Assembly (NCBI RefSeq): GCF_013403565.1
Contig: NZ_CP058627.1
Location: 2,852,001 to 2,916,000, forward strand
Direction of reading: 5' to 3'
From: Chitinibacter bivalviorum
Lineage (GTDB): Bacteria; Pseudomonadota; Gammaproteobacteria; Burkholderiales; Chitinibacteraceae
Length of the DNA stretch: 64,000 nucleotides
The notes under the pieces were generated by a model. The model did no database searches. It was not told where the DNA came from and saw nothing but the letters and a program-made list of their open reading frames with translations. This document shows positions 2,389-35,585 of this stretch, piece after piece (within the stretch, counting starts at the first letter, position 1; every line of letters begins with the position of its first letter). Made by a program: the position numbers and the translations under genes.

Positions 2389-2390
2389 AA

Positions 2391-4120: not shown

Positions 4121-4316
4121 TTTGAATGCATTGATCCAATGCGAACCCAAGCATGAGTCACATGCTGCAACGCAGCAATAAGTCCTTGATCTGTCGTCAT
4201 TTTGAACTAATACGCCGTCAAAATTGACGCTAGCAAGACTTCATGAAAAACTAGCAATAACATCCCTTCACGCTAATTCGACGTGAAGCAATCCACTATT
4301 CCTCGGCCCAGCTTTC

Positions 4317-5330: not shown

Positions 5331-5357
5331 AAAAAGCCGCTTTTCAGCGGCTTTTTT
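5331..5357. terminator. Bidirectional intrinsic terminator
   Basis: A perfect 10-bp stem AAAAAGCCGC / GCGGCTTTTT with a six-base loop lies between the convergent diguanylate cyclase and DUF1993 genes. It carries an A-tract on one side and a T-tract on the other, so it can stop transcription in both directions. Confidence 0.9.
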
Positions 5358-5380
5358 GCTTTTAGTGCTTTGACTGCTCA

Positions 5381-5878
5381 TTAAATCGCACCCAAATAAT
5401 CGGCTTTGCCAACTTCAACCCCATTGCTGCGCAAGATGGCGTAGGCGGTGGTGAGGTGGAAATACAAATTGGGCGCAACAAAATTAAGCAAATACACTTC
5501 AGCGCTCATCGGGTTGGGCAAGAACGACAGCTTGATCGTTTTGCTGCCCGCATCGGCAAATGCCGCTTCTGGAATTGCCTCAATAAACGCCAAAGTTTCA
5601 TCAATACGCGTTTTGAGTTCGGCAAAGGTTTTTTCATTGTCATCGTGTTTGGGCGCTTCGGTGCCCGACAGGCGCGCGACGGCAAATTTCGCGGTGTCAC
5701 AGACGATCTGGATTTGCTTCACAAACGGCAGCATATCGGGCGCTAGGCGCAAGCCGAGCATCGTTTCATCGCTGACCTTTTTGTTCAAGGCAAATTCAAC
5801 GCCTTTATCGAGCAGATGAGAAAGCTGTGTCAAAGCGCGGGTATAAACCGGTACAGATAATTGGTAGTAGCTGAACAT
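5381..5878 (-). CDS. DUF1993 family protein
   Basis: A 165-residue protein. I start it at 5878 (MFSYYQLSVPVYTRAL) because a GGAGA ribosome site lies 7 bases upstream and DUF1993 proteins start with this kind of sequence; the frame extends 17 codons further but without support. DUF1993 proteins are predicted helical bundles related in outline to the DinB-like fold, of unknown function. Recognisable features are the SVPVYTRALTQLSHLLDKG opening, a middle PDMLPFVKQIQ and the late NFVAPNLYFHLTTAYAILR with YLGAI at the end. The gene is convergent with the diguanylate cyclase and 68 bases downstream of the phosphotransferase-like gene, possibly in the same transcript. Confidence 0.8.
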   Translation of the reverse strand: MFSYYQLSVPVYTRALTQLSHLLDKGVEFALNKKVSDETMLGLRLAPDMLPFVKQIQIVCDTAKFAVARLSGTEAPKHDDNEKTFAELKTRIDETLAFIEAIPEAAFADAGSKTIKLSFLPNPMSAEVYLLNFVAPNLYFHLTTAYAILRSNGVEVGKADYLGAI

Positions 5879-5946
5879 CAGGGTGTCTCCAGTTAATTTT
5901 CCAGCAAACTCATTCATCGCAATGAGCATCTCATCAGCATTGGCGC

Positions 5947-6525
5947 TTAGCCCAACATATTCAAGTGCTCTAAGCTATCGATTGCGCCATGCCAGATACG
6001 GTCACGATGTATCTCATCAAAGACCATATCAGCAATAGTCTCTGGCGATATACCCGTAGTATCAATTTCGAAATCGTACGTTAATTCTTGATGAACGCGC
6101 TCAAATTCCCACGCCGCCATCCCGATCGCGCGATCACCGCGCGCTTGTTCACGCCGATTTAATTCATCCAAATCGCAATGCACGCCGATTAGCGCAATGC
6201 GATAGCCTGCTAATTCCGTGAGCAATTCCCGCTTCTCAGCCCGCTCGCACCAGGCATTATCCAAAATCAAATGGCAACCGGCCTGCAGCAGACCCGGCAA
6301 AGCATAGTGATAGGCGCGCACCAGTTGGCCAAAATCATGGCCACGCCGCTGGATCGGCTCACCGCGTTGCATCGCCGCCAAGTCACTGCCTGGCAAGGCG
6401 TACAGCACGGCATCAATGCTGAAATTGAGATATTGCTGCGGCAGCTTTTCCTGCAAAGCTTTGGCCAAGCTGGTTTTGCCCGAGCTGCTACAGCCATTCA
6501 AAATAATGATTTGAGGGAGTTCCAT
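5947..6525 (-). CDS. Chloramphenicol phosphotransferase-like P-loop kinase
   Basis: A 192-residue P-loop protein resembling the CPT family. Walker A is GCSSSGKT (11-18); a DNAWCERAEKRELL segment and GVHCDLDELNRREQARGDRAIG follow, the latter an LID/arginine-rich region typical of CPT-like kinases. Streptomyces CPT phosphorylates chloramphenicol, but most relatives in other bacteria have unknown substrates, so antibiotic resistance should not be assumed. The ATG is preceded by no strong ribosome site. Upstream (on the minus strand) lie two terminator-like hairpins, so the gene probably has its own promoter in the spacer at 6526-6740. Confidence 0.8.
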   Translation of the reverse strand: MELPQIIILNGCSSSGKTSLAKALQEKLPQQYLNFSIDAVLYALPGSDLAAMQRGEPIQRRGHDFGQLVRAYHYALPGLLQAGCHLILDNAWCERAEKRELLTELAGYRIALIGVHCDLDELNRREQARGDRAIGMAAWEFERVHQELTYDFEIDTTGISPETIADMVFDEIHRDRIWHGAIDSLEHLNMLG

Positions 6526-6550
6526 AATTCACATCGGATGATTGGATGTT

Positions 6551-6740
6551 AAAAAACCCGAGGTGTTATGCTTCGGGAATGTTCAGCTTGATGACATGCC
6601 CCACTCGCGAAGCGAGGCACCCCTCAAGGAGGGGTCGGGAGGGGTGGGAATAGCACATCAAGGCTGCGCTCCAACACCTAATTTCTTAGGCTCGGCTTTG
6701 CCGAGACTTGGAAAACGTAATCTCTTAGCTTGTCAGCAGC
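6551..6740. repeat. Hairpin-rich intergenic spacer
   Basis: No gene is seen here. Within about 155 bases there are four inverted repeats: an imperfect terminator-like stem at 6556-6578 (minus-strand T-tract at 6551-6556), CTCGC-GAA-GCGAG at 6604-6616, ACCCCTC-AAG-GAGGGGT at 6619-6635, and CTCGGC-TTT-GCCGAG at 6691-6705. A GC-rich GGGGTCGGGAGGGGTGGG run at 6631-6648 follows the second small hairpin. The first stem resembles the thiD terminator at 6744-6772 in sequence. It could be a REP-like palindromic element, a small RNA or stacked terminators. Confidence 0.5.
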
Positions 6741-6743
6741 CTG

Positions 6744-6772
6744 AAAAATCCCGAGGTTTTACACTCGGGATT
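6744..6772 (-). terminator. Intrinsic terminator of thiD
   Basis: A perfect 9-bp stem AATCCCGAG / CTCGGGATT with an 8-base loop, followed on the minus strand by TTTTT, lies 7 bases after the thiD stop codon. Confidence 0.85.
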
Positions 6773-6779
6773 GCTAGAT

Positions 6780-7649
6780 TTACTGTACCGATTTGGGCTC
6801 GTCGCCGTCGATCTCGATCTCACTGACCGGCACTTCTTCGGCGGGCGGTCGCGCCCAGAACATGCGATCGGGAATCATCTGCCCCATGCCAGGGCGATAG
6901 GCATTGCTAATGGCTTGGAAGGTATATTCCTGCGCTTCCTGCATCGCGGTGGCAATGTCAGCGCCGTTGGCCAAAGCCCCCGCCATCGCCGAGGCCAATG
7001 TGGCACCCGCACCGTGGAAACTGCCCGGCAGGCGCTCCCATTTATCCGAACGCACGCGACCCATCGCGCTGTACAAGGTATTGACGACTTTCGGTGTTTT
7101 TTCGTGCGTACCGGCGATCAATACATACTCGCAACCACATTGCAGCATGCGCTGCGCGGCGGCATCGAGCGGCAAATCTTCTTGCTCGTCTGGATCATCC
7201 GTACCCAATTTTCGCGCATCATCGCTATTACATGTGACTAGAAAACTATGCGGCAACAACAGCTCGCGCATGGCGCTATATAAATCTTCATCCGATAATT
7301 CCTCGCCGCGGCCCATGCTAAACACGGGCTCCAGAATCAGCGGAATATCGGGGTAATCGGATGCAATCTCGGCGATCACCGCCAGATTTTCCACGCTGCC
7401 GACCATGCCGACTTTGATCGCATCGATTTTGATGTCTTCTAAGATAAAACGTGCTTGTTCATCGACAAACTCGCTATCAACCGCCTGAAAACTCTGTACG
7501 CCAGCGGTGTCTTGCACCGTCATCGCCGTGACGATCGGCAAGGCATGGCAACCCAATGAGGCCAAAGTCAGAATATCGGCCATTAAGCCTGCGCCGCCCG
7601 ATGGGTCGTTCGCGGCAAAAACCAGTACTGTGGGCGGGGTTGGAGTCAT
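6780..7649 (-). CDS. thiD: Hydroxymethylpyrimidine/phosphomethylpyrimidine kinase (ThiD), Cys-less active site
   Basis: A PfkB/ribokinase-fold kinase of thiamine synthesis that normally phosphorylates HMP and HMP-P. Recognisable: FAANDPSGGAGLMADI at the N-terminus, DAIKVGMVGS, LEPVFSMGRG and the C-terminal YRPGMGQMIPDRMFWARPP tail typical of betaproteobacterial ThiD. I start at ATG 7649 (289 residues); a TTG at 7667 would add six residues, with no clear ribosome site for either. Odd: the catalytic motif GxGC is GAGA (Ala216, codon at 7002-7004), so the usual active-site Cys is missing, and GGAGL-M replaces the usual Q. It may have reduced or different activity. It is divergent from rubredoxin across 70 bases, with no TPP riboswitch visible. 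Confidence 0.85.
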   Translation of the reverse strand: MTPTPPTVLVFAANDPSGGAGLMADILTLASLGCHALPIVTAMTVQDTAGVQSFQAVDSEFVDEQARFILEDIKIDAIKVGMVGSVENLAVIAEIASDYPDIPLILEPVFSMGRGEELSDEDLYSAMRELLLPHSFLVTCNSDDARKLGTDDPDEQEDLPLDAAAQRMLQCGCEYVLIAGTHEKTPKVVNTLYSAMGRVRSDKWERLPGSFHGAGATLASAMAGALANGADIATAMQEAQEYTFQAISNAYRPGMGQMIPDRMFWARPPAEEVPVSEIEIDGDEPKSVQ

Positions 7650-7719
7650 AGGTGGCGTCAATTTCAAGAATGATTCAGGTAGAATCTGAATTCTAAACTA
7701 CTCTGCCCCGGTAAAGCTG

Positions 7720-7884
7720 ATGAAAAAGTATATGTGCTTGATTTGTGCGTTTATTTACGACGAAGCGGCAGGTCGCCCGGAAGATAACATTCCACCCGGC
7801 ACCAAATGGGAAGATGTGCCCACCAACTGGACCTGTCCCGATTGCGGCGCGCGTAAAGACGATTTTGAAATGGTGCAAATCTAA
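7720..7884 (+). CDS. Rubredoxin
   Basis: A 54-residue one-electron carrier with a single Fe(Cys)4 site. The ligands are Cys6 and Cys9 (CLIC) and Cys39 and Cys42 (CPDC), with the family signature IYDEAAG and the [19 protein letters not shown] segment. Many rubredoxins begin MKKY, as here. It is divergent from thiD and only 13 bases upstream of the M48 lipoprotein gene, so both may be on one transcript. The pairing of rubredoxin with thiD and nearby hemL is common in betaproteobacteria. Its redox partner is not in the window. Confidence 0.95.
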
Positions 7885-7897
7885 CAAGTCGACTCCC

Positions 7898-8746
7898 ATG
7901 AAAAAAACACTTCTTCTTGCAAGCATGGCGCTGGCTTTACTCACCGCTTGCCAACAAGTGAACACCACCCAAGGCGGCGCAGTGGGTGCCAATCGCAAGC
8001 AAAGTATGAGTACGCTATTGTCGGCGAAAGACGTCGATCAAATGGCCGCTGCTGCCTACACCGATTCGCTCAAGCAAGCGCGGCAGAAAAATGCGCTCTT
8101 GCCCGCCAATGATCCCGTCGCCATTCGAGTGAAAAATATTGCGGCGCGCATCATTCCGCAAACAGCGGTGTTTCGCCCTGATGCGGCAAATTGGAAATGG
8201 GAAGTCAACGTCGAGAAAAGCCCCGAGCTCAATGCCTATTGCATGGCCGGCGGTAAAATCATGTTTTACACAGGCATTATTGATCAGCTCAAACTCACCG
8301 ATGATGAAATCGCCCAGATTATGGGCCATGAAATCAGCCATGCGCTGCGTGAACACAGTCGCGAACGCCTGAGCGAGCAATACAATAAACAGCTGGGCTT
8401 GCAAGGTATCTCGATTGCCGCATCGATTCTGGGCGGTGGCAAATACGATGGCCTCACCAATGCAGCACTGGGTGTAGGCAGTCAGGCCTATGACGTGGCT
8501 TTGGCGCTGCCCAATAGCCGCACACATGAATCGGAAGCCGATATGATGGGGCTGGAATTGGCGGCTCGCGCGGGTTACAACCCCAATGCAGCAGTCACCC
8601 TATGGCAAAAGATGGCTGCCGCTAGCAAGGGTGCGCCACCGCAATTTTTGTCGACTCACCCATCCAATCAAACGCGCATCGCCGAGCTACAGGCTAAGAT
8701 CCCAGCCGTGATGCCACTGTACGAAGCGGCGCGTAAAAATAAATAG
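7898..8746 (+). CDS. M48 family metalloprotease, lipoprotein
   Basis: A 282-residue Zn protease anchored as a lipoprotein. The start is ATG 7898, which gives a clean lipoprotein signal peptide MKKTLLLASMALALLTAC with lipid-modified Cys18; the frame runs upstream through the rubredoxin gene and should be ignored there. The HExxH zinc motif is HEISH (His144, Glu145, His148), and the third ligand is in the downstream ESEADMMGL segment. This is the layout of the LoiP/YcaL/BepA-like group, which helps outer membrane quality control. Residue Q19 after Cys suggests outer membrane sorting. The C-terminus has FLSTHPSNQTRI, typical for these proteases. It follows rubredoxin by 13 bases. Confidence 0.93.
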   Translation: MKKTLLLASMALALLTACQQVNTTQGGAVGANRKQSMSTLLSAKDVDQMAAAAYTDSLKQARQKNALLPANDPVAIRVKNIAARIIPQTAVFRPDAANWKWEVNVEKSPELNAYCMAGGKIMFYTGIIDQLKLTDDEIAQIMGHEISHALREHSRERLSEQYNKQLGLQGISIAASILGGGKYDGLTNAALGVGSQAYDVALALPNSRTHESEADMMGLELAARAGYNPNAAVTLWQKMAAASKGAPPQFLSTHPSNQTRIAELQAKIPAVMPLYEAARKNK

Positions 8747-8817
8747 TCTGCTTTAAGACAACGGACGCCTCGGCAGTTTCGCCGACAATCCGAGCTTCAA
8801 TCACTTGGAGTCGCTGC

Positions 8818-9240
8818 ATGTTATGGGTTAAAGCATTTCATATTATTTTTGTGATTAGCTGGTTTGCCGGGCTGTTTTATTTGCCACGCATTTTTGTGAA
8901 CCACGCAATGGCAACCGAGCCCGTCGAGATTGAACGCCTGAAATTAATGGAGCGAAAACTATTTCGCTTTATGACGCCCATCGCCGTTCTCGCGCTCGGC
9001 TTTGGTATCTGGATGTGGGGCTATTACGCCTTTTATATGGGCGCAGGCTGGTACTGGATGCACGCCAAACTGGCTTTGGTCGCGCTCTTAGTCGCCTATC
9101 ACCTCTGGTGTGGCAAAATCTATCGCGATTTCGCGGCCGATAAAAATCGTCGCAGCCATGTGTGGTATCGCGTATTTAACGAAATCCCTGTGCTGATTTT
9201 GATGGCCGTGGTGATTCTAGTCGTGGTTAAACCTTTCTAA
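8818..9240 (+). CDS. hemJ: HemJ-type protoporphyrinogen oxidase
   Basis: A 140-residue membrane protein of the UPF0093/HemJ family, which oxidises protoporphyrinogen IX to protoporphyrin IX in bacteria lacking HemG or HemY-type oxidases. Four hydrophobic segments are visible (about 3-25, 52-75, 82-100, 122-138). The family pattern MLWVKAFHIIFVISWFAGLF at the start, an early His8 (a likely haem ligand position) and WYWMHAKLALV in the middle support the call. GGAG lies 8 bases before the ATG. It is 71 bases after the M48 gene and 12 bases before a small lipoprotein gene. HemL, encoded about 1 kb downstream, acts at the other end of the same pathway. Confidence 0.88.
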   Translation: MLWVKAFHIIFVISWFAGLFYLPRIFVNHAMATEPVEIERLKLMERKLFRFMTPIAVLALGFGIWMWGYYAFYMGAGWYWMHAKLALVALLVAYHLWCGKIYRDFAADKNRRSHVWYRVFNEIPVLILMAVVILVVVKPF

Positions 9241-9252
9241 TCTGAGTATTCC

Positions 9253-9639
9253 ATGAAAAATATCGTCCTGATCGCTGCGCTGGCAGCCTTGCTTAGCGCC
9301 TGTGGTGAGCCCAAATCGAGCTGCGGCGTTTACGCCATTGGCCCCGATCAAATTCGCGAGCTGATCAAAGAAAACAAAGCCGAGCCAGCGCCAGGACGTA
9401 CCGAAAAAGCCAAACTACCGCCGAATTTCCCCACGGAATTACTCGATAAAGACGGTTTTTATCGCGGCATGGCGGTATTTTGCAAAATAGATGAAGCCAA
9501 AGCAGCGCTCACCGCGCAAGGCCATCAAGGCTGGAGCGTGTATGAGCTCAATACCGATTGGGATAAAAACGTCTATCAAGCCGACGATCAGGCTTTCCAT
9601 TTAAAAGACATCGCAACCATCAAACAGGCGATTGAATAA
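9253..9639 (+). CDS. Small lipoprotein of unknown function
   Basis: A 128-residue predicted lipoprotein: MKNIVLIAALAALLSAC is a standard type II signal with the lipobox LSAC, then GEPKSSCGVYAIGP. I do not recognise the mature domain; it is hydrophilic, with two further Cys residues (in SSCGV and FCKID) that could pair. The stop codon shares one base with the CYTH gene start (TAATG), so the two are tightly coupled. Position between hemJ and the CYTH gene suggests a small shared transcript with hemJ, but gives no function. Confidence 0.75.
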   Translation: MKNIVLIAALAALLSACGEPKSSCGVYAIGPDQIRELIKENKAEPAPGRTEKAKLPPNFPTELLDKDGFYRGMAVFCKIDEAKAALTAQGHQGWSVYELNTDWDKNVYQADDQAFHLKDIATIKQAIE

Positions 9640-10100
9640 TGGCCATCGAAATCGAGCGCAAATTCCTACTCAATAATCAACATTGGCGCGAGCAAGTTTC
9701 ACGCAGCACCCGCATTGCGCAAGGCTATCTGAATGCCGAGCCAAGCCGCACCGTGCGCGTGCGCGTCAAAGGTGATAGCGGCTTTATCACCATCAAAGGC
9801 AAAAACGAAGGCATTAGCCGCGTCGAATTTGAATATGAGATACCCGCCGCAGATGCGTTGGAACTGCTCAAGCTCTGCCCCAATGTGCTCGACAAAACAC
9901 GCCACTTGGTCAACATCGACGGCCATACGTTTGAAATCGACGAATTTCACGGCTTAAACAATGGGCTTATCGTCGCTGAAATCGAGCTTGCCAGCGAAAA
10001 CGCCAGCTACCCGCAACCCGATTGGCTAGGGCCCGAAGTCTCGGGCGATGTGCGTTATTACAATAGTGCGCTGTCGGAAAAACCGTTTTCAAGCTGGTAA
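9639..10100 (+). CDS. CYTH domain protein (probable inorganic triphosphatase)
   Basis: A 153-residue single-domain CYTH protein. The diagnostic ExExK motif is EIERK at residues 4-8, and the tunnel-fold basic/acidic strands follow (VRVRVKGDSGFITIKGKN, EFEYEIP, EIDEFHG, IVAEIEL). Related small bacterial proteins such as the one from Nitrosomonas hydrolyse tripolyphosphate, and this is the most probable activity; adenylate cyclase of class IV is the alternative. It starts on the last base of the preceding stop codon. A polyphosphate kinase gene lies elsewhere in the window (47.1 kb), which would fit a polyphosphate-linked metabolism but is not a direct link. Confidence 0.9.
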   Translation: MAIEIERKFLLNNQHWREQVSRSTRIAQGYLNAEPSRTVRVRVKGDSGFITIKGKNEGISRVEFEYEIPAADALELLKLCPNVLDKTRHLVNIDGHTFEIDEFHGLNNGLIVAEIELASENASYPQPDWLGPEVSGDVRYYNSALSEKPFSSW

Positions 10101-10117
10101 AATAGCCGTACACATCA

Positions 10118-10145
10118 GGGTCGACTTAGTCGGCCCCTTATTTTA
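10118..10145 (+). terminator. Probable intrinsic terminator after CYTH gene
   Basis: GGGTCGAC-TTA-GTCGGCCC forms an 8-bp stem with one G-U pair, followed by the T-rich CTTATTTTATC. It would end the rubredoxin-to-CYTH transcript ahead of hemL. The T-tract is interrupted, so efficiency is uncertain. Confidence 0.6.
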
Positions 10146-10211
10146 TCTGGGGTATAGCTCTGAAAATAAATCAGAATATAAACTTCAGATAAATACCATA
10201 TAGAGGTATTT

Positions 10212-11495
10212 ATGAATCGCAATGAACAACTCTTCGCCGCCGCCCAGCAACACATCCCCGGTGGCGTCAATTCTCCCGTGCGTGCATTCGGCTCGGTTGG
10301 CGGTACACCGCGCTTTTTTGCCAAAGGTGAAGGCGCTTATGTGTGGGACGCTGACGGTAAAAAATACATCGATTATGTTGGCTCTTGGGGCCCGCTCATT
10401 CTTGGCCACGCGCATCCTGCCGTGATCGAAGCCGTGACACGCACCGCGCAAAACGGCATGAGCTTTGGTGCACCCACCGAAGGCGAAGTCCATATCGCCG
10501 ATTTGCTATGCCAGATGTTGCCCTCGCTCGAGCAAGTTCGCCTTGTTTCGAGCGGCACCGAAGCCACGATGAGCGCCATCCGCCTCGCGCGTGGCTTTAC
10601 CGGCCGCGATAAGTTGATCAAATTTGAAGGCTGCTACCACGGCCATGCTGATAGTTTGCTGGTGAAAGCAGGCTCGGGCTTGCTGACGTTTGGGAATCCA
10701 TCATCTGCTGGTGTCCCTGCTGCCGTGGCCGCCGATACCATCGTACTGCCGTATAACGATGTCGCCGCACTCGAAGCGCTGTTTGCTGAACAAGGCGACA
10801 AAATCGCCGCGCTAATTGTTGAGCCAATCGCCGGCAATATGAATCTGGTGCAACCCAGCAAAGAATTCGTCGCGGCCATGAGGAAATTAACGCAAGATCA
10901 CGGCGCAGTATTGATTTACGATGAAGTGATGACAGGGTTTCGCGTTGGACTCCAATGTGCACAAGGCCTGCACGGCATTACCCCCGATCTGACCTGCTTG
11001 GGTAAAGTCGTCGGCGGTGGCCTGCCACTGGCCGCATTTGGCGGTCGCGCCGACATTATGGCCAAACTCGCCCCCCTCGGCCCCGTTTATCAAGCCGGTA
11101 CGCTCTCAGGCAATCCGCTCGCCGTCGCTGCGGGTATGGTCACCTTGCAAGAGATCAGCAAACCGGGTTTCTTTGAAGCATTAAGCGCCAAAACCCAAGC
11201 TTTCGCCGACGGCCTGAACGCCATTGGCCAGCAATTAGCCAATACCAAAACCATCAGCGCCCAATCGGTCGGCGGTATGTTCGGCATTTATTGCAGCCCA
11301 AATATTCCGCACAGCTACAGCGATGTGATGAATAGCGACCGAGTGCGCTTTAACGCCTTCTTCCACGCCATGCTCGATGAAGGCATTTACCTTGCCCCAT
11401 CGGCATTTGAGGCGGGGTTTGTTAGCGCTGCACATACAAATACTGAGATCCAAATCACTCTGGACATTGCCAAGGCAGTTTTGCATAAAATTTAA
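10212..11495 (+). CDS. hemL: Glutamate-1-semialdehyde 2,1-aminomutase
   Basis: A 427-residue PLP enzyme that converts glutamate-1-semialdehyde to 5-aminolevulinate in the C5 route of tetrapyrrole synthesis. The opening [23 protein letters not shown] is characteristic; the PLP Schiff-base lysine is Lys265 in [11 protein letters not shown], and DEVMTGFRV carries the Asp that contacts the pyridine nitrogen. Length matches the family. The gene stands alone between two terminators, with an AGAGG-like site (TAGAGGTATTT) 8 bases before the ATG. HemJ is about 1 kb upstream, and hemC-hemD-hemX-hemY is 40 kb downstream. Confidence 0.97.
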
Positions 11496-11520
11496 GCAAA
11501 ATCGTCTGATTAATACAACT

Positions 11521-11547
11521 AAGCCCCTAATTATTAGGGGCTTTTTT
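11521..11547 (+). terminator. Intrinsic terminator of hemL
   Basis: A perfect 10-bp stem AAGCCCCTAA / TTAGGGGCTT with loop TTA and a following T-tract lies 25 bases after hemL. Confidence 0.92.
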
Positions 11548-11848
11548 ATTGCCATCCCAAAATCGAAAGCAACCACTCATACGGATTCTCACCGCGTTCG
11601 TCAAGCTAACAAGACAAAGCTAAGGTCTTGTTCTAATTTGAAAATCAACACAAGCAATTTATAAACTGATCCGAAGCTTAAGCAATGCAAAACATACTAG
11701 ATCAGCACCGTTCAGCTTGGAAAAAGCTACGTTGAATTTTTGTACGGCTAGGTCACATACAGATCCATATAAATTAGTATATTCTAATATTACCATTGTA
11801 AAAATTTCCTGATGTGCGCAAAAACGTCAGTTCTTAGGAGTACCGGAC
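11548..11848 (+). promoter_or_regulatory. Upstream region of the pilus operon
   Basis: About 300 bases without a gene. Base composition drops to AT-rich here, as in the pilus genes that follow. GGAG at about 11837-11840 is a good ribosome site for pilY1. I see no convincing sigma-70 or sigma-54 box, although an AT-rich TTAGTATATTCTAA palindromic stretch lies at about 11776-11789. Confidence 0.4.
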
Positions 11849-14800
11849 ATGAGTAATACTTTTAAAGTAAACACCATCGCAGCTTGGCTCTACCTTGCGT
11901 TCCCCATGGTCGTTATTCCACTTTATGCAGCGGAACCCTATCCTGCCTTGCCACCGACACTTTCCACATCAGTCGATCCAAATGTAATGCTGTTGATAGA
12001 TAACTCGGGGAGTATGTTGCAAGACGGTAGCAATAATTGGATTACTCAATCAAGCAATTCAAGCTGTAATCAAACCAACGAAATTTGGACTGGTTGTATT
12101 GGAAATTCGACCTACCGCAATTGGATCGACAGCGAATCAAGCAATCCAAATACCAAAATGAATATTGCAAAAAAGGTTGCTAGGTCTTTAATTACCAATA
12201 ATCCAAAATTACGTTGGGGACTTGCATCATTTAGGGTGAATGACACTACAACTGTAGGCGGCTCAGAACGCGGTGAATCTGCAAAAATAGTAACACCGAT
12301 TGGCAGTTCAATTGGCACCTCAACTGATAGCAGTACTGCGACTGTACTGGGAGGTATTAATAGTTTGCGAGCAAGGACTGCAACACCACTAGGTGAAGCA
12401 TTGCTGGAAATTACTCAATATTATCAAGGCAAAGCCTCTTTATATGGGCTGATTTCAGAGAATTACACCAGTCCAATTCAATATCGCTGCCAAAAAAACT
12501 TCACGATTGTGATTACCGATGGAGATGCAACAAACGATGACAATTTACCAGGCAGTGGAAAAAGTGCAATTAGCTATACCTCTATCGATGCTGCGAATAA
12601 TTCAGTTAATAAAAGTTTTAGTGTTTGTACCGCAGTTTCAAGCCCAGATTGCCCTGCAGCCTTAGAAGGAAGTTCAGGAACACCTGGCTTTGGTGATACA
12701 ACAAATCGCCCACGTGCAATTCGCGATGTCGCGAAATATGCCAATGATTTAGATATGCGAACTTCTGGAAATGATCTGGATGGAAAATCATTTGATGATA
12801 CCAAATTTAAAAAACAAAATATGCAAACCTATACCGTCGGATTTAGTGTATTGAATGATGTTTTACCTGCAACAGCAAGTGTGGGTGGAGGTAAATATTA
12901 TACTGCCACAGATGAAACAACTTTATCGACTGCGCTAACAAATGCAGTCAATGAAATTATTGCTTCTATTTCAAATGCCGGCGGGGTAGCAACACAAACA
13001 GAAACTTATACAGCAGGCAATAAAGTATTCCAACCAGTATTCAATCCAAAAGGTTGGTATGGTGAATTACGTTGTTATAACCTAGATTCATATGGCAATT
13101 TTGATCCAGTTACTTCCAAATGTACACCAAATGCGAAAGCAGTATTTCCAGCTGTAGCTAGCAGAAAAATATACTCATCAACCAATCCAACTAGCACAAG
13201 TACCTCCACTTCAAGCGGTACAACTGCCTTTAGTTTTGATACCAGCACTGGTTTAACAGCAATGAGCACAACTCAGAAAACAGCATTAGGTGCTACTGCT
13301 ACAGATCAACAAAATATCATTAATTATATCCGTGGTACCGATGGGACATTTAGATCACGAACAAATGGACTATTGGGAGATATTGTAGATAGCCAACCTA
13401 TTGTCGTTTCGAAACCGGCAGGAGAATCTACAGATACCGATTATGCAACATTCAAAACGGCGAATGCATCGCGAAGTATGGTCTTTATAGGTGCGAATGA
13501 TGGCATGATGCATGGATTTGATATTAATAATATGACGGAAATTTTAGGGTATATACCCGCCACACTGTATTCAAAATTACCAAATTTAAGTAAAACAGAT
13601 TATGGTGAAAATACAACTCCACATAATTTTTATGTGAATGGTAGTATGCGCCAAGCAGATATTAAAGCAGGTGGTAGCTGGAAAACAATATTAGTAGGTG
13701 GACTAGGCCAAGGTGGTAAAGCCTATTATGCAATTGATGCGACTCAAGCAAGTAATTTTTCATCAGCATCAGCAACAGTCAAATGGGAACGCAATAATTT
13801 AAATTCACCATCAATTGGCTATACTTTACCAGCACCAATAATTTACAACGTACGAACTTCATCTTCAACTGTTGTCCCTGCCGTAATTTTAGCTAATGGT
13901 TATGAAAATAATTGGGGTGTAACTCCTGTAACGGCAAACACATCTTCCTTACTCATAGTTAATGCCAACACGGGCGATCTTATTAAAGAAATCACCGTGC
14001 CAAATAGCACGGGGCTATCTTCACCAGCTGGTGCTGATTTTGGACAAGATGGAATATTGGACTATGTTTATGCCGGTGATATGAGCGGAAAATTATGGCG
14101 TTTTGATTTAACTGATAACAATCCAAATAATTTTAAAGTTGCACCTAACCCTATTTATGATGCCGGTACTACAAAACCAATTGCAATGCGGCCAGCAGTT
14201 ATGGCACTCAACAAAACAAATGGTGATGCAATTGGGAATTTAATATTTTTTGGCACTGGTAAATTATTAACCGATACAGATAGAACAAATACAGATCAAC
14301 AAACATTCTATGCTGTCATTGATAAGATGGTTGATACACCAGTTACGGTAACACAATCTGATTTACAAGTACAAACAGTGATAGACACAAAATCAACAAC
14401 AAGTAATCGTATTGGAAATTATCGAAAAGTATCAAATAACAGTTTAGACCTCCAATCTGCTACAAATACCAAATTAGGATGGTATATAGATTTTCCAATA
14501 TCCAGCGAAAAATTAGTTACATCACCGATGCTTTATGACGACAAATTAATTTTCGGTACGGGTGTACCTTTAGCAACAGAAAAATGTATTCCTGGGGGTA
14601 AGGGCTGGATTATGGGTTTGAATCCATTAACAGGATCAGTAACTACTAATAAAAAAGGTAATAAATACAGTTTTATTGATATAAATAGTGATAATAAAGC
14701 AACAGCAGCAGACCAAATTTCATTTACGACTGGTGCGGAATATATGAGTGGATATGAAAAATCAGGTATTCCAACCGAATTATCGTATGTATCTTCTGAG

Positions 14801-15070
14801 AATAAAATTATAACCCCGACTAATTCAGACACTAGTTTAGGCGCAATAGGTAGTGTTATTGCGCAACGCGAGTCAAATTACGCGGCCGTCTATATTGGCA
14901 ATGCAAAAGCAGGTGTGAAATCAGGGGTTCCTCAACCTAAACCAGCTTCAACAGGTAAAGGATCTCTATATGGTGGAACAATTGGTAGTGATACAGTCGA
15001 TAAAGAAACATTATTATCTCCATCAACAGGTGTAAAAGTTGAAATTAGTACTTGGCGGGAGATCAAATAA
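11849..15070 (+). CDS. pilY1: Type IV pilus tip adhesin / biogenesis protein PilY1
   Basis: A 1073-residue secreted protein of the PilY1/PilC family, the tip-associated factor of type IV pili that controls retraction and adhesion. Signal peptide at 1-28 (ends LYAAEP). A von Willebrand A-like domain (about 45-380) has the MIDAS motif DNSGS (51-55). The C-terminal beta-propeller (from about 490) has the family segments GLLGDIVDSQP, FIGANDGMMHGFD and GGLGQGGKAYYAID, and a calcium-binding loop DFGQDGILDYVYAGD near 729-743. A second Ca-loop-like stretch, DINSDNKATAAD, is near 943. It leads the minor pilin genes rather than following pilX as in Pseudomonas. Composition is markedly AT-rich compared with flanking genes. 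Confidence 0.93.
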   Translation: MSNTFKVNTIAAWLYLAFPMVVIPLYAAEPYPALPPTLSTSVDPNVMLLIDNSGSMLQDGSNNWITQSSNSSCNQTNEIWTGCIGNSTYRNWIDSESSNPNTKMNIAKKVARSLITNNPKLRWGLASFRVNDTTTVGGSERGESAKIVTPIGSSIGTSTDSSTATVLGGINSLRARTATPLGEALLEITQYYQGKASLYGLISENYTSPIQYRCQKNFTIVITDGDATNDDNLPGSGKSAISYTSIDAANNSVNKSFSVCTAVSSPDCPAALEGSSGTPGFGDTTNRPRAIRDVAKYANDLDMRTSGNDLDGKSFDDTKFKKQNMQTYTVGFSVLNDVLPATASVGGGKYYTATDETTLSTALTNAVNEIIASISNAGGVATQTETYTAGNKVFQPVFNPKGWYGELRCYNLDSYGNFDPVTSKCTPNAKAVFPAVASRKIYSSTNPTSTSTSTSSGTTAFSFDTSTGLTAMSTTQKTALGATATDQQNIINYIRGTDGTFRSRTNGLLGDIVDSQPIVVSKPAGESTDTDYATFKTANASRSMVFIGANDGMMHGFDINNMTEILGYIPATLYSKLPNLSKTDYGENTTPHNFYVNGSMRQADIKAGGSWKTILVGGLGQGGKAYYAIDATQASNFSSASATVKWERNNLNSPSIGYTLPAPIIYNVRTSSSTVVPAVILANGYENNWGVTPVTANTSSLLIVNANTGDLIKEITVPNSTGLSSPAGADFGQDGILDYVYAGDMSGKLWRFDLTDNNPNNFKVAPNPIYDAGTTKPIAMRPAVMALNKTNGDAIGNLIFFGTGKLLTDTDRTNTDQQTFYAVIDKMVDTPVTVTQSDLQVQTVIDTKSTTSNRIGNYRKVSNNSLDLQSATNTKLGWYIDFPISSEKLVTSPMLYDDKLIFGTGVPLATEKCIPGGKGWIMGLNPLTGSVTTNKKGNKYSFIDINSDNKATAADQISFTTGAEYMSGYEKSGIPTELSYVSSENKIITPTNSDTSLGAIGSVIAQRESNYAAVYIGNAKAGVKSGVPQPKPASTGKGSLYGGTIGSDTVDKETLLSPSTGVKVEISTWREIK

Positions 15071-15591
15071 TGAGTATATATTCCCGAAAGAAAATGCATG
15101 GTATGACCTTAATTGAAATGATGATTACCATTTCTATACTGGGGATTTTATCTGCTATTGCAATTCCCAATATGATGGATTGGGTAAGAGATGCTCGATT
15201 AGCAAGTCAAAGTGATCTATTAGTAACAGGTCTTAGCTCAGCACGATTAGAAGCAGTGAAACGTAGAAGTGATGTTGTCTTTTGTCCAGCTAATGATGCA
15301 AACACAGCTACGGCCTGTTCTGGAACTGCAGCTGATTGGTCCAAAGGCTGGCTAATAATGACAGGGACAGAAATCATTCAAAGATTCGTGGTTCAAAAAG
15401 GGATCACAATTAGTCCAACAGTTGCAGGAGCGGCAATTACATCTACAACATTTAATGCCACATTGGGAAGCTCTCAAGCTGCTGGTTTAGTCAACTTTAG
15501 TGCTTGTATTACAGGCCGAAAAGGACATTCGGTAGCAATTTATCAATCAGGTCATATAAGTAAAAGTATCACTAGCACAACTTGTTCATAG
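15070..15591 (+). CDS. Minor pilin FimT/FimU-like (GspH family)
   Basis: A 173-residue prepilin-like protein. The start is the ATG at 15070, sharing one base with the pilY1 stop (TAATG); a TTG further upstream is less likely. The leader MSIYSRKKMHG is followed by the prepilin peptidase site G-MTLIEMM with Glu5, then a hydrophobic helix (ISILGILSAIAIPNMMDW). The C-terminal part, with two Cys pairs possible, resembles FimT/FimU/GspH minor pseudopilins that prime pilus assembly. It is the second gene of the pilus block. Residue +1 is Met rather than Phe. Confidence 0.85.
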   Translation: MSIYSRKKMHGMTLIEMMITISILGILSAIAIPNMMDWVRDARLASQSDLLVTGLSSARLEAVKRRSDVVFCPANDANTATACSGTAADWSKGWLIMTGTEIIQRFVVQKGITISPTVAGAAITSTTFNATLGSSQAAGLVNFSACITGRKGHSVAIYQSGHISKSITSTTCS

Positions 15592-15613
15592 TTGATGAAT
15601 TAAAGGCATAAAT

Positions 15614-16117
15614 ATGAAACGCCAACGTGGTTTATCACTAATTGAAGTCATGGTTTCAATTTTAATACTTGCTTTAGGCCTTTTAGGTTTAGCAGGTTTA
15701 CAGACCCGCGCCGTAATTATGAATCAAAGTAGCTATTATCGAAGTATTGCAGCGGATATTGGTGCAGAGCTAGGCGATCGAATCCGCGCAAATAGAACGC
15801 CATTTCTTGCAAGCAGCGACGCATTGCCCGTGCGATTACCACCTGACTTTTCAAAATGTACTCAAAATTCTGGAGATGAAGATCATATTACTTGTCAGGC
15901 ACAAGATACGGGTCATGATGTATATTTGGTTTCAACAGAAATGACAGAGTGGAATTCATTTTTAAGATCGCAATTACCAAATGCAACATATACATTAACA
16001 AGTGGAGCTGGACAATCAACTGGGTTTTATCGTTATACATTAACAATTACTTGGAATGATAATCGAGCAGCAGCGACGGGCTCACAGTCAACAAGTTATA
16101 GTACGGTGCTCGAATAA
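15614..16117 (+). CDS. pilV: Minor pilin PilV
   Basis: A 167-residue minor pilin. Short leader MKRQRG, cleavage before LSLIEVMV with Glu5, then the PilV-typical ILILALGLLGLAGLQTRA helix and NQSSYYRSIAADI...ELGDRIRANR. PilV joins FimU/FimT, PilW, PilX and PilE in the initiation complex that starts type IV pilus assembly. It lies 22 bases after the fimT-like gene and overlaps pilW by one base (TAATG). Confidence 0.92.
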   Translation: MKRQRGLSLIEVMVSILILALGLLGLAGLQTRAVIMNQSSYYRSIAADIGAELGDRIRANRTPFLASSDALPVRLPPDFSKCTQNSGDEDHITCQAQDTGHDVYLVSTEMTEWNSFLRSQLPNATYTLTSGAGQSTGFYRYTLTITWNDNRAAATGSQSTSYSTVLE

Positions 16118-16887
16118 TGAAAAAAAATACCGGTTTTACTTTAATTGAGTTAATGGTTGCAATGGGAATTGCAATGGTAACTTTATTGGCTGTTTCAACC
16201 TTGTATATCAATACAAAACAAACTTTCAATTTGCAAGGAATGCAAAATAGATTATCAGAAGATGGACGCTTTGCTATATCAATGTTACAACGTGTAATTA
16301 GCCAAGCCGGTTTTCGCCCCAATCCAAATGCATTAATTACTTCCGATCGAATTTCAGCTATTTCAAACAGTTCATTATCAGTACGATTTAATTCTGATGG
16401 AACAAATCAAATAGGTTGTAACGGGACATCTACTGCTGCAGGAGATACAACATTAACAATTTCATCAGCCAGTAATAAACTGCAATGTGACACCATCGAT
16501 TGGATTACACCTAGCACAACCGGAACGGGTAATGCTACCGAAGTAGTTGATTTTAAAGTGCAATATGGTATTGATGAAGCTGACACTGATGCAGGTCTGC
16601 CAAATACGCCTGCAGACTATGGGTGTGGAGCGCTTGCAACAGATACTTCATTCAGAGTACGAAATTGTATTCCGAATAGATATGTAAATACATTACCTGG
16701 TGGTGTAAACGCTGATCAAATTGTGGCAGTTAAAGTTTGTTTAGTATTAAGAACAGAAAAAACTGATAATTCATTAGTAAAATCAGCAGCAATCAATGAT
16801 TGTAGTGGTACTGCAATTACCAATTCTCAAAATGATAAAAAATTATATAGAACTTTCAGATCGACAATTATGATTAAAAATAGGTAA
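16117..16887 (+). CDS. pilW: Minor pilin PilW
   Basis: A 256-residue minor pilin starting on the last base of the pilV stop codon. Leader MKKNTG, cleavage before FTLIELMV with Glu5, then a hydrophobic helix and the PilW segment NLQGMQNRLSEDGRFAISMLQRVISQAGFR. The C-terminal region contains several Cys residues. It belongs to the minor pilin initiation complex. Codons 2-4 form an A8 run, as also in the last pilin gene of the block. Confidence 0.92.
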   Translation: MKKNTGFTLIELMVAMGIAMVTLLAVSTLYINTKQTFNLQGMQNRLSEDGRFAISMLQRVISQAGFRPNPNALITSDRISAISNSSLSVRFNSDGTNQIGCNGTSTAAGDTTLTISSASNKLQCDTIDWITPSTTGTGNATEVVDFKVQYGIDEADTDAGLPNTPADYGCGALATDTSFRVRNCIPNRYVNTLPGGVNADQIVAVKVCLVLRTEKTDNSLVKSAAINDCSGTAITNSQNDKKLYRTFRSTIMIKNR

Positions 16888-16895
16888 GGCTTAAT

Positions 16896-17381
16896 ATGAG
16901 AAAAAATCAGGAAGGTTTTATTTTAATTGTAGCCCTAATGCTGTTGGTAATTGTAACTATTCTAGTAGTAAATGGTATGCGTAGTACAACTATGAACGAA
17001 AAAATGGCTGGCAATTATATGGATAGAAATAGAGCTTTTCAAGCCGCTGAACAAGGAATCAGGCAAGCATCGGCTTTTTTACAAAGTAATGCGGATGCTT
17101 GCCTATCTGGTTGTACCAATAGCAATACTTCAGGATCAGGACCCTTAGTCACTTCAATACCTGCAACTTGGAGTAATACATATGCGAGAGATGTTTCACT
17201 TGGTACTGGTCAATTGTCATCAGCAAAATACCTTATCAATCAATTACCAACTACTTTTTTACCTACTGATGGATCAAAAGCAAGTTGTATCCCTTATAGC
17301 ATTATGAGTCGAGGACAAGGTATAGATTCACGTTCTGTAGTTATTCTTCAATCAACTGCATTTGTTTGCCCTACAAGTTAA
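16896..17381 (+). CDS. pilX: Minor pilin PilX
   Basis: A 161-residue PilX-family protein. The leader MRKNQEG is followed by [20 protein letters not shown], where position 5 is Val rather than Glu, as is common in this GspK-like group, and then [29 protein letters not shown], the PilX signature. Four Cys residues in the C-terminal half may form disulfides. It lies 8 bases after pilW and 23 bases before pilE. Confidence 0.9.
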
Positions 17382-17404
17382 TCATAACTAATTGGATATA
17401 TAAC

Positions 17405-17782
17405 ATGAAAAAAAATAATGATGGTTTTACTTTGATTGAATTAATGATTGTAATTGCAATTATTGGCATTCTTTCAGCAATAGCGTTACCTGCATACCAA
17501 CAATATATTATTAAAACACGTAGGGCTGATGTTCAGCGACAATTGACATCACAAGCACAATCATTGGAAAGATATTTTACGTCTAATGGGACCTACGTTT
17601 CTTCTGGTACAACTTGTGCAGTGAATAATGAAACCAATACCTACTATACGATTACAAGTGTATGTAATACTCCAACTACATTTACTATTACTGCAACTGC
17701 AATAACTACAAAATCTCAGGCAAGTGATGGTGATCTTACACTTGATAATACAGGTGCAAGAACAGGGAAGTGGGCAAATTAA
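17405..17782 (+). CDS. pilE: Type IV pilin-like protein PilE (minor pilin)
   Basis: A 125-residue pilin. I start at ATG 17405, which gives the leader MKKNNDG, cleavage before [20 protein letters not shown] and Glu5; the frame extends 13 codons upstream into pilX without support. The mature protein has a Cys pair (TTCAV and SVCNT) that probably closes a D-region-like loop, and the tail [16 protein letters not shown] typical of PilE-type minor pilins next to pilX/pilY1. It is the last gene of the block. Whether it is the major pilin cannot be told from sequence; its location with minor pilins argues that it is not. Confidence 0.88.
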
Positions 17783-17790
17783 TTACTTAC

Positions 17791-18270
17791 TTATAATTTA
17801 CTAATAATTTCAGTATAGTCTGGAATTCCTATATATTTTTTTAATAATTTTCCATCTTTTCCTATCAAAAAATTGGTTGGCGTTAATGTTACTCCGCCAA
17901 AACTTTGCGCAATTTTCCCATCTGCATCATAAATAATTTTGAATGGTATTTTTTCTTTATTTTTATAGTTTTTAATATATTCAATATTGTCATAACTCAT
18001 TGCGATGGCAACTGTTTGAAAACGATCAGCACCATATTTGAGCTGTAATTTTTTCAATTCAGGCATTTCTTGCATACAGCCCGTACAGCTGGTGGCCCAG
18101 AAGTTGACCAATACAACTTTACCTTGGTAGTCAGATAATTTGATCTGTTGTCCATCTAAGGTCGTCATTGGTGCTTGAGTTGGTAGCTGTTCTTGCTGTG
18201 AGTACAGCAAATAGCCACCAAGTACTACTGCAAGTAGGCTAACACTGATCACTTGTAGACGGGTTTTCAT
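17791..18270 (-). CDS. TlpA/ResA-like thioredoxin-fold protein
   Basis: A 159-residue membrane-anchored thioredoxin-like protein facing the periplasm: a short N-terminal hydrophobic helix (about 6-23), then a TlpA domain with LVNFWATSCTGCMQEMPEL, whose CTGC active site is Cys62 and Cys65. The later FGGVTLTPTNFLIG holds the cis-Pro region, and the C-terminal strand KKYIGIPDY completes the fold. Such proteins reduce or exchange disulfides during cytochrome c maturation or protein folding. It is convergent with pilE only 8 bases apart and shares the AT-rich composition of the pilus genes, so it may have travelled with them and could act on the Cys-containing pilins (inference). Confidence 0.88.
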   Translation of the reverse strand: MKTRLQVISVSLLAVVLGGYLLYSQQEQLPTQAPMTTLDGQQIKLSDYQGKVVLVNFWATSCTGCMQEMPELKKLQLKYGADRFQTVAIAMSYDNIEYIKNYKNKEKIPFKIIYDADGKIAQSFGGVTLTPTNFLIGKDGKLLKKYIGIPDYTEIISKL

Positions 18271-18368
18271 ACGTATTCCTTCTGTTGCTGTTTATTTTAT
18301 GCGAAGTATGCTGTTCTGAGTGCGTGTTGGAGTGATGTTTTCTCAGAAAGTTTTCTTTACATATATAT

Positions 18369-18565
18369 TGATAAGAAGAAGATAGTAATAATAGATAAGG
18401 GCAAGCTAGGTCTGTGGATAAGTCATTTTCCACAATTAAAACAATATTTTACGTTATCCACAACCCAGTCTAGGGTTTTGGTATTGCCTGTGGGTAATTT
18501 GGTGGGGGTTTTGTCCACATCCGGGTTTGCCTATTTATCCACAACGCCAGATTTGTTTCTCCACA
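18369..18565. other. Cluster of DnaA-box-like 9-mers with adjacent trinucleotide tract (origin-like)
   Basis: The non-coding stretch between the TlpA-like gene and ylqF holds three perfect DnaA boxes: TGTGGATAA at 18413-18421, TTATCCACA at 18454-18462 and TTATCCACA at 18535-18543. Four more 9-mers have one mismatch: TTTTCCACA 18426-18434, TGTGGGTAA 18489-18497, TTGTCCACA 18511-18519 and TTCTCCACA 18557-18565. Left of the first box, after 18 bases, is TAGTAATAATAG at 18383-18394, matching the DnaA-trio pattern (3'-GAT/AAT-5' read away from the box), in a strongly AT-rich stretch. This is the architecture of a bacterial origin or of a DnaA-titrating/regulatory locus. No dnaA, dnaN, rpmH or mnmG gene lies beside it. 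Confidence 0.6.
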
Positions 18566-18606
18566 TGCCAAGTGGCTGATTTGATAAGACGTTTGTGAAT
18601 AAAGCG

Positions 18607-18612
18607 TATAAT
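18607..18612 (+). promoter_or_regulatory. Candidate -10 box of ylqF within an inverted repeat
   Basis: A perfect TATAAT lies 24 bases before the ylqF ATG and is flanked by AAAGCG (18601-18606) and CGCTTT (18615-18620), an inverted repeat that could be an operator. TTGATA at 18581-18586 could be the -35, but the 20-base spacing is longer than usual. Confidence 0.5.
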
Positions 18613-18636: not shown

Positions 18637-19548
18637 ATGGCGATTCAGTGGTTTCCGGGGCATATGCATGTGGCTCGCAAGAAAGTGGCTGAGACTTTGG
18701 CCATCGTTGATGTCGTGATCGAGATCGTTGATGCGCGTATGCCTTTGTCGAGTAGCAATCCTATGATTGAAAAGCTACGTCAGCATCGTCAGCGGCCAGC
18801 TTTGAAAATTTTGAATAAAGCCGACTTGGCTGACCCTGCGCTCAATAAGGTGTGGTTGGAGTGGTTTCGAGCCCAACCGGGTACCGAAGCGATTTTGCTG
18901 GGTGAAGATAATAAGAAAGAAGCGCTCAAAAAAATCCCGCAACTGTGTTTGCGTTTAGCTCCGTTTCGCACTGGGGTGGAAAAACCTTTGCGTGCGATGA
19001 TTATGGGTATTCCGAATGTCGGTAAATCGACGCTGCTTAATACTCTGGCGCAGCGTAAAGTGGCCAAGGTGGCCGATACGCCGGGTGTGACCAAATCTCA
19101 GCAGCGGATTGAAACGCTGGGTGGGGTGATTTTGTACGATACGCCAGGTTTGATGTGGCCAAAAGTGGAGCACGAGCCATCTGGATTTCGATTGGCGCTG
19201 GGCGGCTCAATTGGTCGCAATGCCTACGATGAAGTTGAAGTGGCTTACTTTGCAATCGAGCAACTGAAAGAGCGTTATCCAGCGGCTTTGATGGCACGCT
19301 ATAAATTGCCTGATCTGAATGGTGAAGTGGAAGAGTTATTCCAGCGTATTGGCCGCAAGCGGGGCGCGGTCATGAGCGGTGGTGTGATTGATGAGCAAAA
19401 AACTGCGGATTTGATCATTACCGATTACCGAACCAAAGCGATTGGCCGGATGACGCTGGAAACGCCTGATGATTTTATCGGGGTGGATTTGGGTTCGGGT
19501 GAAGATGTACCGCCTGAAGCGGTTGAAAACGAAGAAGATGCAAATTAA
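18637..19548 (+). CDS. ylqF: Ribosome biogenesis GTPase YlqF/RbgA
   Basis: A 303-residue circularly permuted GTPase that helps late 50S subunit assembly. Starting at ATG 18637 (GGGGG ribosome site 7 bases upstream) gives the family opening MAIQWFPGHMHVARKKV; the frame is open for 14 more codons upstream, but that part is non-conserved and would cover the promoter. G motifs appear in permuted order: G4 NKAD (60-63), G1 GIPNVGKST (124-132), G3 DTPG. It is followed 172 bases downstream by the ZapB-like/ZapA genes. The upstream origin-like region sits directly before its promoter, which may place ylqF under DnaA influence (inference). Confidence 0.95.
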   Translation: MAIQWFPGHMHVARKKVAETLAIVDVVIEIVDARMPLSSSNPMIEKLRQHRQRPALKILNKADLADPALNKVWLEWFRAQPGTEAILLGEDNKKEALKKIPQLCLRLAPFRTGVEKPLRAMIMGIPNVGKSTLLNTLAQRKVAKVADTPGVTKSQQRIETLGGVILYDTPGLMWPKVEHEPSGFRLALGGSIGRNAYDEVEVAYFAIEQLKERYPAALMARYKLPDLNGEVEELFQRIGRKRGAVMSGGVIDEQKTADLIITDYRTKAIGRMTLETPDDFIGVDLGSGEDVPPEAVENEEDAN

Positions 19549-20246: not shown

Positions 20247-20441
20247 GCTTTCCTGCGGTGTTCGTGACGGCTCAGATTCTTTGAACCGATAAGCTGTATA
20301 GCATGTTTGCCGGGTCTCCCGACGCCTGTTGTGAGCATTCCCCAGTTTCGACTCGGATGAATGCACCTGATGGCATCGACTTGGCAGCGACTTGAACCAT
20401 TGGGTTCAAGATGCGAGTCGGAACGACATTCGCGGGAAGCC
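20247..20441 (+). ncRNA. ssrS: 6S RNA (SsrS)
   Basis: The region between zapA and fau fits 6S RNA, the promoter-mimic RNA that binds sigma-70 RNA polymerase. The ends can pair: GCTTTCCTGCGGTGTTCGT at about 20247-20265 against ACGACATTCGCGGGAAGC at 20423-20440. The hallmark CTTGAACC-ATTG-GGTTCAAG hairpin lies at about 20391-20410, and an open central bubble lies between the arms. Location (zapA-ssrS-fau) is the conserved one in Escherichia coli and relatives. A CCCCCCTCTTTTTT tract right after the RNA runs up to the fau start codon, so 6S 3' processing and fau expression are intertwined. End points are approximate (a few bases). Confidence 0.88.
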
Positions 20442-20453
20442 CCCCTCTTTTTT

Positions 20454-30425: not shown

Positions 30426-31960
<1,535 letters not shown>

Positions 31961-31984
31961 AAGAGAAAGACCTGCGGGTCAAGT

Positions 31985-32004
31985 ACTCACACTCATCGGC
32001 TGTA
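31985..32004 (+). other. 16S processing stem, 3' strand
   Basis: Perfect 20-base complement of 30271-30290, closing the pre-16S RNase III stem. Confidence 0.85.
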
Positions 32005-32153
32005 GAATTTGAAGATACAGAGAAAGTAACTGCGAGATGAAGCAATTGATCTCAGGGTTACGGACTTGGTTGGAAGCTGGGTCAGTCGCTCTGGCGGCGT
32101 AGATTATCTAAGGTAATCTCGAAGTTAGGGTTGATCTAGTGAAGACAAAAGCT

Positions 32154-32230
32154 GGGTCAGTAGCTCAGTCGGTTAGAGCACCGTCTTGATAAGGCGGGGG
32201 TCGCTGGTTCGATTCCAGCTTGACCCACCA
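32154..32230 (+). tRNA. tRNA-Ile (GAT)
   Basis: A 77-base tRNA including an encoded CCA. Acceptor GGGTCAG pairs with TTGACCC, the anticodon loop CTTGATAAG has GAT at 32188-32190, and the T-arm is GGTTCGATTCC. It is in the 16S-23S spacer, its usual place. A partial look-alike of its 5' end is found upstream at 32075-32091. Confidence 0.97.
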
Positions 32231-32269
32231 CTTACCTAGTAAGTGGAAACAGCTTAGTAATGCCAGATT

Positions 32270-32345
32270 GGGGGATTAGCTCAGTTGGGAGAGCACCTGC
32301 TTTGCAAGCAGGGGGTCGTCGGTTCGATCCCGTCATCCTCCACCA
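32270..32345 (+). tRNA. tRNA-Ala (TGC)
   Basis: A 76-base tRNA with encoded CCA. Acceptor GGGGGAT pairs with ATCCTCC, the anticodon loop TTTGCAA has TGC at 32303-32305, and the T-arm is GGTTCGATCCC. It follows tRNA-Ile after 39 bases in the rRNA spacer. Confidence 0.97.

Positions 32346-32698: not shown

Positions 32699-35585
<2,887 letters not shown>

Follow-up and report, generated by a model that had tools for sequence, protein, structure and literature searches.

Chromosomal origins that lie apart from dnaA are well known, as the accessible part of one account sets out (PMC4285127), and for Laribacter hongkongensis the available part of another source gives an Ori-Finder oriC with eight DnaA boxes and no stated position (PMC3135505). 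The oriC of E. coli, between mnmG and mioC, is itself apart from dnaA and has an unwinding segment to the left of an exact R1 box (TGTGGATAA); taking its IHF site as given in the accessible part of PMC4285127, we computed the position of that site on E. coli oriC as +27 from R1. In the basal unwinding system of B. subtilis, as far as the available part of PMC8287927 describes it, an A-rich strand with trinucleotides of middle A lies 5' of TGTGGATAA, and the DnaA-trio rule given there calls for at least three trios (NAN) at a spacer of 0-16 from the box. Separation from dnaA has precedents; the titles and abstract openings of the literature searched yielded no published report of an origin at ylqF (DoriC, possibly with automatic predictions, lay outside the search).

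Here we describe a cluster of DnaA boxes beside ylqF in Chitinibacter bivalviorum that is very probably the chromosomal oriC. The window, that is, the whole stretch of 64,000 nucleotides that was analysed, corresponds to C1:2,852,001-2,916,000 of the 3.68-Mb genome, and coordinates without a prefix are window positions. A motif scan of the window found eight DnaA boxes with at most one mismatch in a span of 190 bp upstream of ylqF. Three are exact copies of TTATCCACA (18413 on the minus strand, 18454 and 18535 on the plus strand) and four have one mismatch (18426, 18511 and 18557 on the plus strand, 18489 on the minus strand); these seven, spread over 18413-18565, are the ones that the preliminary description had reported, and the eighth, with one mismatch, is absent from that earlier list. 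The locus was compared across a sample of 43 Chitinibacteraceae genomes from 11 genera, in all of which both ylqF and dnaA were found; counts out of 41 omit G170 and G171, both of genus g95, which have no clear R1 (three mismatches). The features are as follows.

17791 to 18270, minus strand: TlpA/ResA-like thiol-disulfide oxidoreductase gene (Redoxin and AhpC-TSA above the Pfam cut-offs)
18354 to 18399, plus strand: putative DNA unwinding element, AT-rich and A-rich, containing TAGTAATAATAG and a conserved ATAAG edge
18413 to 18421, minus strand: R1-like DnaA box, exact, reading TGTGGATAA on the plus strand and adjoining the unwinding element
18426 to 18434, plus strand: DnaA box with one mismatch, TTTTCCACA; of the 43 genomes, G156 also has it in the same register
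18439 to 18451, plus strand: IHF-like site AAACAATATTTTA, 26 bases from the start of R1, called with one mismatch to WATCAANNNNTTR, which we take to be the IHF consensus
18454 to 18462, plus strand: DnaA box, exact, +41 from R1; at most one mismatch in 20 of 41 genomes
18489 to 18497, minus strand: DnaA box with one mismatch, TTACCCACA, offset +76; at most one mismatch in 36 of 41 genomes, at most two in 41 of 41
18511 to 18519, plus strand: DnaA box with one mismatch, TTGTCCACA; shared, in register, by the other five g1 genomes
18535 to 18543, plus strand: DnaA box, exact, offset +122, distal and inverted to R1; at most one mismatch in 29 of 41 genomes
18557 to 18565, plus strand: DnaA box with one mismatch, TTCTCCACA, offset +144; at most one mismatch in 25 of 41 genomes
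18594 to 18602, minus strand: eighth DnaA box, TTATTCACA, directly upstream of the TATAAT that precedes ylqF
18607 to 18612, plus strand: putative -10 of ylqF, TATAAT, conserved in the alignment as gTATAATcg
18637 to 19548, plus strand: ylqF, ribosome biogenesis GTPase (TIGR03596, 308.6 bits, cut-off 208.2)

The TlpA/ResA-like gene, which scores below the cut-offs of the named NCBIfam models, is transcribed away from the cluster, and a sigma-70 scan reported no promoter pair at the TATAAT before ylqF. Among named sequences the closest to this ylqF is that of Chitinibacter tainanensis, at 86%. The rRNA operon (30426-35854) runs rightward from the cluster, as had been noted from the sequence at the outset, and the remark that dnaA and dnaN are not adjacent also holds: dnaA starts at C1:3,197,643, 327 kb to the right of the cluster, with one box upstream, in the gene order mnmE-yidC-rnpA-dnaA-dnaN-gyrB that places dnaN downstream of it. 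A 6S RNA is encoded at 20247-20442, 1.6 kb to the right of where ylqF starts. An AT-rich run of type IV pilus genes (11849-17782) adjoins the cluster on the left and includes one for a protein with a partial PilC tip adhesin match below the cut-off and pilin-like genes, the last of which matches the ComP DNA-uptake-sequence receptor. Five 278-aa frames at other loci (L002-L006) have a partial match to the DnaA-type ATPase with almost equal scores; these we presume to be, perhaps, transposon helper ATPases.

The window holds 18 matches to the box with at most one mismatch against 12.86 expected from shuffling, a total that is unremarkable because 8 of 100 shuffles reach it; what is remarkable is the clustering, with 8 of the 18 in 190 bp. 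The densest 200 bp contains eight boxes, compared with a maximum of two in 60 first-order Markov copies of the window, and 200 permuted motifs reach at most three per 200 bp in the real window. The density of the cluster is hence beyond chance. Counting exact boxes only, there are 29 in the genome, and nowhere else do three of them fall within 200 bp. At C1:2819874-2819894 (L029:3875-3895), 50 kb left of the cluster and near genes for an AraC-type regulator and an ABC-2 transporter, two exact boxes lie 12 bp apart with a third 0.8 kb further, and this group is possibly a DnaA-modulating site.

The boxes are not absent from relatives, which the preliminary description had proposed to compare, and they are kept at ylqF. 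An R1-like box with at most one mismatch precedes ylqF by 222-235 bp in 41 of the 43 genomes and is exact in 36. Relative to R1, boxes with at most two mismatches are found at +76 in 41 of 41 genomes, at +122 in 37 and at +144 in 36, where random offsets give fewer than one, and a box at -42 to -53 of ylqF recurs in members of g1, g2, g3, g92, g95 and g97. Under a stricter criterion, which admits at most one mismatch and a distance of up to 300 bp, each of the 43 genomes has from 1 to 8 boxes, the low values being those of G151, G152 and G171 (one) and of G182 and G183 (two), 5 of the 43. The 300 bp upstream of dnaA hold exactly one box, an exact one, in all 36 regions tested, out of 43. Where one contig carries both genes, as in 21 genomes, the distance from the start of dnaA to that of ylqF is 27-453 kb, and this spread indicates that dnaA and the cluster have shifted relative to each other, with the cluster staying at ylqF.

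To the left of R1, the segment 18354-18399 is 80% AT, a composition reached by 0.3% of the 46-mers of the window, and it forms a conserved block in the family alignment. On the R1 strand A exceeds T in 41 of 41 genomes, and in 35 of 41 the distance from the end of the ATAAG edge to R1 is 12 or 13 bases, so that at the level of sequence an AT-rich segment, whose opening is predicted, lies beside the cluster at a conserved distance. The TAGTAATAATAG tract (18383-18394) is where it had been described, in this AT-rich stretch 18 bases from the first exact box; its description as DnaA-trio-like is weak, however, as the window falls short of the published rule, with two trios at a spacer of 13 and four at a spacer of 18 (the limit being 16), and differs in this from the B. 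subtilis system. Across the family 32 of 41 genomes pass the rule compared with 25 expected from shuffled composition, a rate barely above that of base composition, and we rejected the rule as evidence for an origin. The A-rich polarity of the strand resembles B. subtilis and not E. coli, where the R1 strand is T-rich, without being proof of a trio mechanism.

In 40 of the 41 genomes WATCAANNNNTTR is matched best at +26 from R1, the exception being G156 with +21; 7 of the 41 matches are perfect, 24 have one and 10 have two mismatches, compared with 0.1, 0.7 and 5.8 in shuffles. R1 is thus followed by an IHF-like site as in E. coli oriC, at +26 here and +27 there, and the unwinding segment left of an exact R1 and the position apart from dnaA are further points of likeness. 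We built a profile from the conserved 76-bp core, comprising the A-rich unwinding segment, the R1 box and the IHF-like site at +26. In 850 kb of stretches from the C. bivalviorum genome this profile finds the window locus with E 1.3e-10, the next best match having 0.18 and the reversed control giving none; on E. coli oriC it matches partially, over R1, with E 2.6e-4 in 1.3 kb. The two loci differ in their neighbours, which are ylqF and the TlpA-like gene here, and in their GATC sites, through which Dam and SeqA exert control: E. coli oriC has 11 in 232 bp, whereas the 252 bp of 18354-18605 contain none, and SeqA-type sequestration at this origin is therefore unlikely.

GC skew was sampled in 40 stretches of the C. 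bivalviorum genome (786,002 bases, 21%). All samples between 1.08 and 2.82 Mb are negative, and all those running from 2.88 Mb past the end of the contig and on to 1.01 Mb are positive. One switch is inside the window and the other is close to 1.0-1.1 Mb; should C1 be circular, the cluster would have its opposite point at 1.083 Mb. Within the window the skew is -0.074 over 1-11848, +0.034 over 11,849-18,369, where the AT-rich type IV pilus genes lie, and +0.080 to the right of the cluster, which puts the cumulative minimum at 11,979, 6.4 kb left of the boxes. In three relatives from other genera the sampled stretches also switch at or near the ylqF locus. G175 is negative up to 3,950,000 and positive from 3,953,001 (ylqF 3,952,288, dnaA 4,192,371); G159 is negative to 390,000 and positive from 394,001 (ylqF 392,273, dnaA base 13); and G162 stays negative as far as 260 kb, has a skew near zero at 268-311 kb and is positive from 350 kb (ylqF 289 kb, dnaA base 98). 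Neighbouring samples bracket the switch within ∼3 kb in G175 and ∼4 kb in G159, while the skew of G162 is shallow, with the switch between 260 and 350 kb, and that of G159 is also shallow. No switch at dnaA was seen in the samples of the four genomes. The skew test suggested in the preliminary description, made here on sampled stretches, places the switch at or near the cluster and not beside dnaA. Three single-contig relatives have dnaA within the first 100 bases of the record, and family records that begin at dnaA are probably not numbered from the origin; a correct origin is needed both for arguments on gene dosage and for estimating growth rate from read depth.

With the pattern that we take to be that of parS, we found six sites (one exact, five with one mismatch), all at 2,768,571-2,874,683 and all within 102 kb of the cluster, and none in the control. 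The parB gene, at C1:3,023,972, is 153 kb from the cluster and near neither dnaA nor the parS-like sites. The pattern assumed for dif gave a single one-mismatch match, at 1,011,688, near the second skew switch, which we regard as suggestive only because the count at up to two mismatches equals that of the control (five matches versus six).

The sampled skew in four genomes, the placement of the parS-like sites and the conservation in the family strongly support the view, raised as one of several in the preliminary description, that this is the real oriC of the lineage, away from dnaA. Known loci of the datA and DARS type likewise combine DnaA boxes with an IHF site, and a DnaA-titrating or -modulating locus of this kind, lying by chance near the true origin, would be compatible with that composition and with the distance to the cumulative skew minimum. 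Such a coincidence is very unlikely given that exact boxes are nowhere else so packed, that the skew switch accompanies the locus in three other genera, that the unwinding segment is conserved at a near-fixed spacing to R1, and that matches to the core occur in dnaA-dnaN spacers of other families. The locus might instead be a ylqF promoter region controlled by DnaA and devoid of origin function, as the box just upstream of the conserved TATAAT would suggest; yet the boxes reach back 224 bp from the start codon and flank the unwinding segment, and in other families the 400 bp upstream of ylqF are box-free in 24 of 24 regions (a 25th locus starts at a contig edge). This explanation, which also leaves the skew and the parS-like sites unaccounted for, we hold to be extremely improbable. 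Neither titration nor control of ylqF alone, both proposed earlier, is needed to explain the locus, although the promoter-proximal box may act on ylqF as well.

We give almost no credence to the idea that the cluster is a second or former origin and that the dnaA-dnaN region is the one in use today. The gene order rnpA-dnaA-dnaN-gyrB, often a marker of the origin, is present, but no box with at most one mismatch occurs within 700 bp after dnaA in 23 of 28 family genomes (the remaining five, all of genus g96, have one or two one-mismatch matches there), the core profile gives one weak match (E 0.037) in 38 family dnaA loci, and the skew samples of four genomes do not switch at dnaA.

Taking the locus beside ylqF as the chromosomal oriC, we propose that DnaA would bind the R1-like box together with those at distances of 76, 122 and 144 bp from it, whose presence and fixed spacing are observed, and that IHF would bend the DNA 26 bp from R1, as the sequence and the parallel with E. 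coli suggest. A DnaA filament would then extend leftward and open the A-rich 18354-18399, and two forks would depart bidirectionally, in keeping with the skew switch. As the ylqF promoter lies at the right edge of the origin, DnaA may also tune ylqF, and the box at 18594-18602 beside the TATAAT could couple transcription of the gene to DnaA.

The origin core appears to be akin to one that other families of the order retain in the spacer from dnaA to dnaN. Of 25 outgroup dnaA loci, drawn from 13 families, nine match the core profile just after dnaA (three from f13, three from f21, and a single locus from each of f46, f39 and f50; E from 2.8e-10 to 0.0029), with none in the reversed control; four weaker matches (E 0.0031 to 0.4) lie upstream of dnaA in two loci and after it in two. 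At 25 outgroup ylqF loci the profile finds no match. By the profile, the dnaA-dnaN spacers of these five families, which we take as putative origins from their sequence, hold the same core, and they differ from the present locus, which is 327 kb from dnaA, in that the core follows dnaA and has R1 read from the side of dnaN. The boxes on the dnaN side carry an IHF site in f13, f21 and f46, and those on the dnaA side of the outgroups have no consistent one. In eight loci belonging to f27, f32 and f51, the 700 bp that follow dnaA are free of boxes.

Given that the core is present at some outgroup dnaA-dnaN spacers and absent from outgroup ylqF loci, the ancestral core probably left dnaA; in the ancestry of the Chitinibacteraceae it would have come to sit upstream of ylqF, with dnaA retaining one box, presumably autoregulatory. 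In a DnaA tree, rooted at the midpoint for drawing, f27, f32, f51, f21 and the Chitinibacteraceae form one supported group (100/98), in which f21 alone has kept boxes after dnaA, and hence the core probably left the spacer within this group, once or several times; the branch order among f21, f27+f51 and the Chitinibacteraceae is not separated in this tree. As the core is recognisable at ylqF in one family as well as after dnaA in families that have retained it there, the relocation of the origin can be dated and tested. Of 399 genomes of the order, 80 contain the pattern of R1 followed by the IHF site (reversed control, 4 of 399), including 11 of the 13 family genomes in the sample, each time once and just upstream of ylqF; the C. 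bivalviorum genome is missed because its IHF-like site has A for T, and G154 because its R1 has a mismatch.

Dense DnaA-box clusters that match the core with E 4.6e-7 to 6e-4 are also present in f27 and f51 genomes, at L305 (G117:C7), L306 (G027:C9), L303 (G134:C7) and L304 (G094:C77), and these are candidate relocated origins. They are on a contig other than that of dnaA in G117, G134 and G094 and ∼15 kb from dnaA in G027, and kdtA/waaA or other sugar genes are near L303, L305 and L306. We lean slightly towards a model in which the origin core of the order is a portable module that moved out of the dnaA-dnaN spacer on more than one occasion, reaching ylqF in the Chitinibacteraceae and, in f27, f51 and perhaps f32, other places, partly beside lipopolysaccharide genes, with the dnaA genes staying together. 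In G007, a single-contig genome of f7, dnaA occupies C1:4-1425 with an exact box just after it at 1472, and two R1-IHF modules lie at the far end of the record (C1:5138163 and 5138554; L318).
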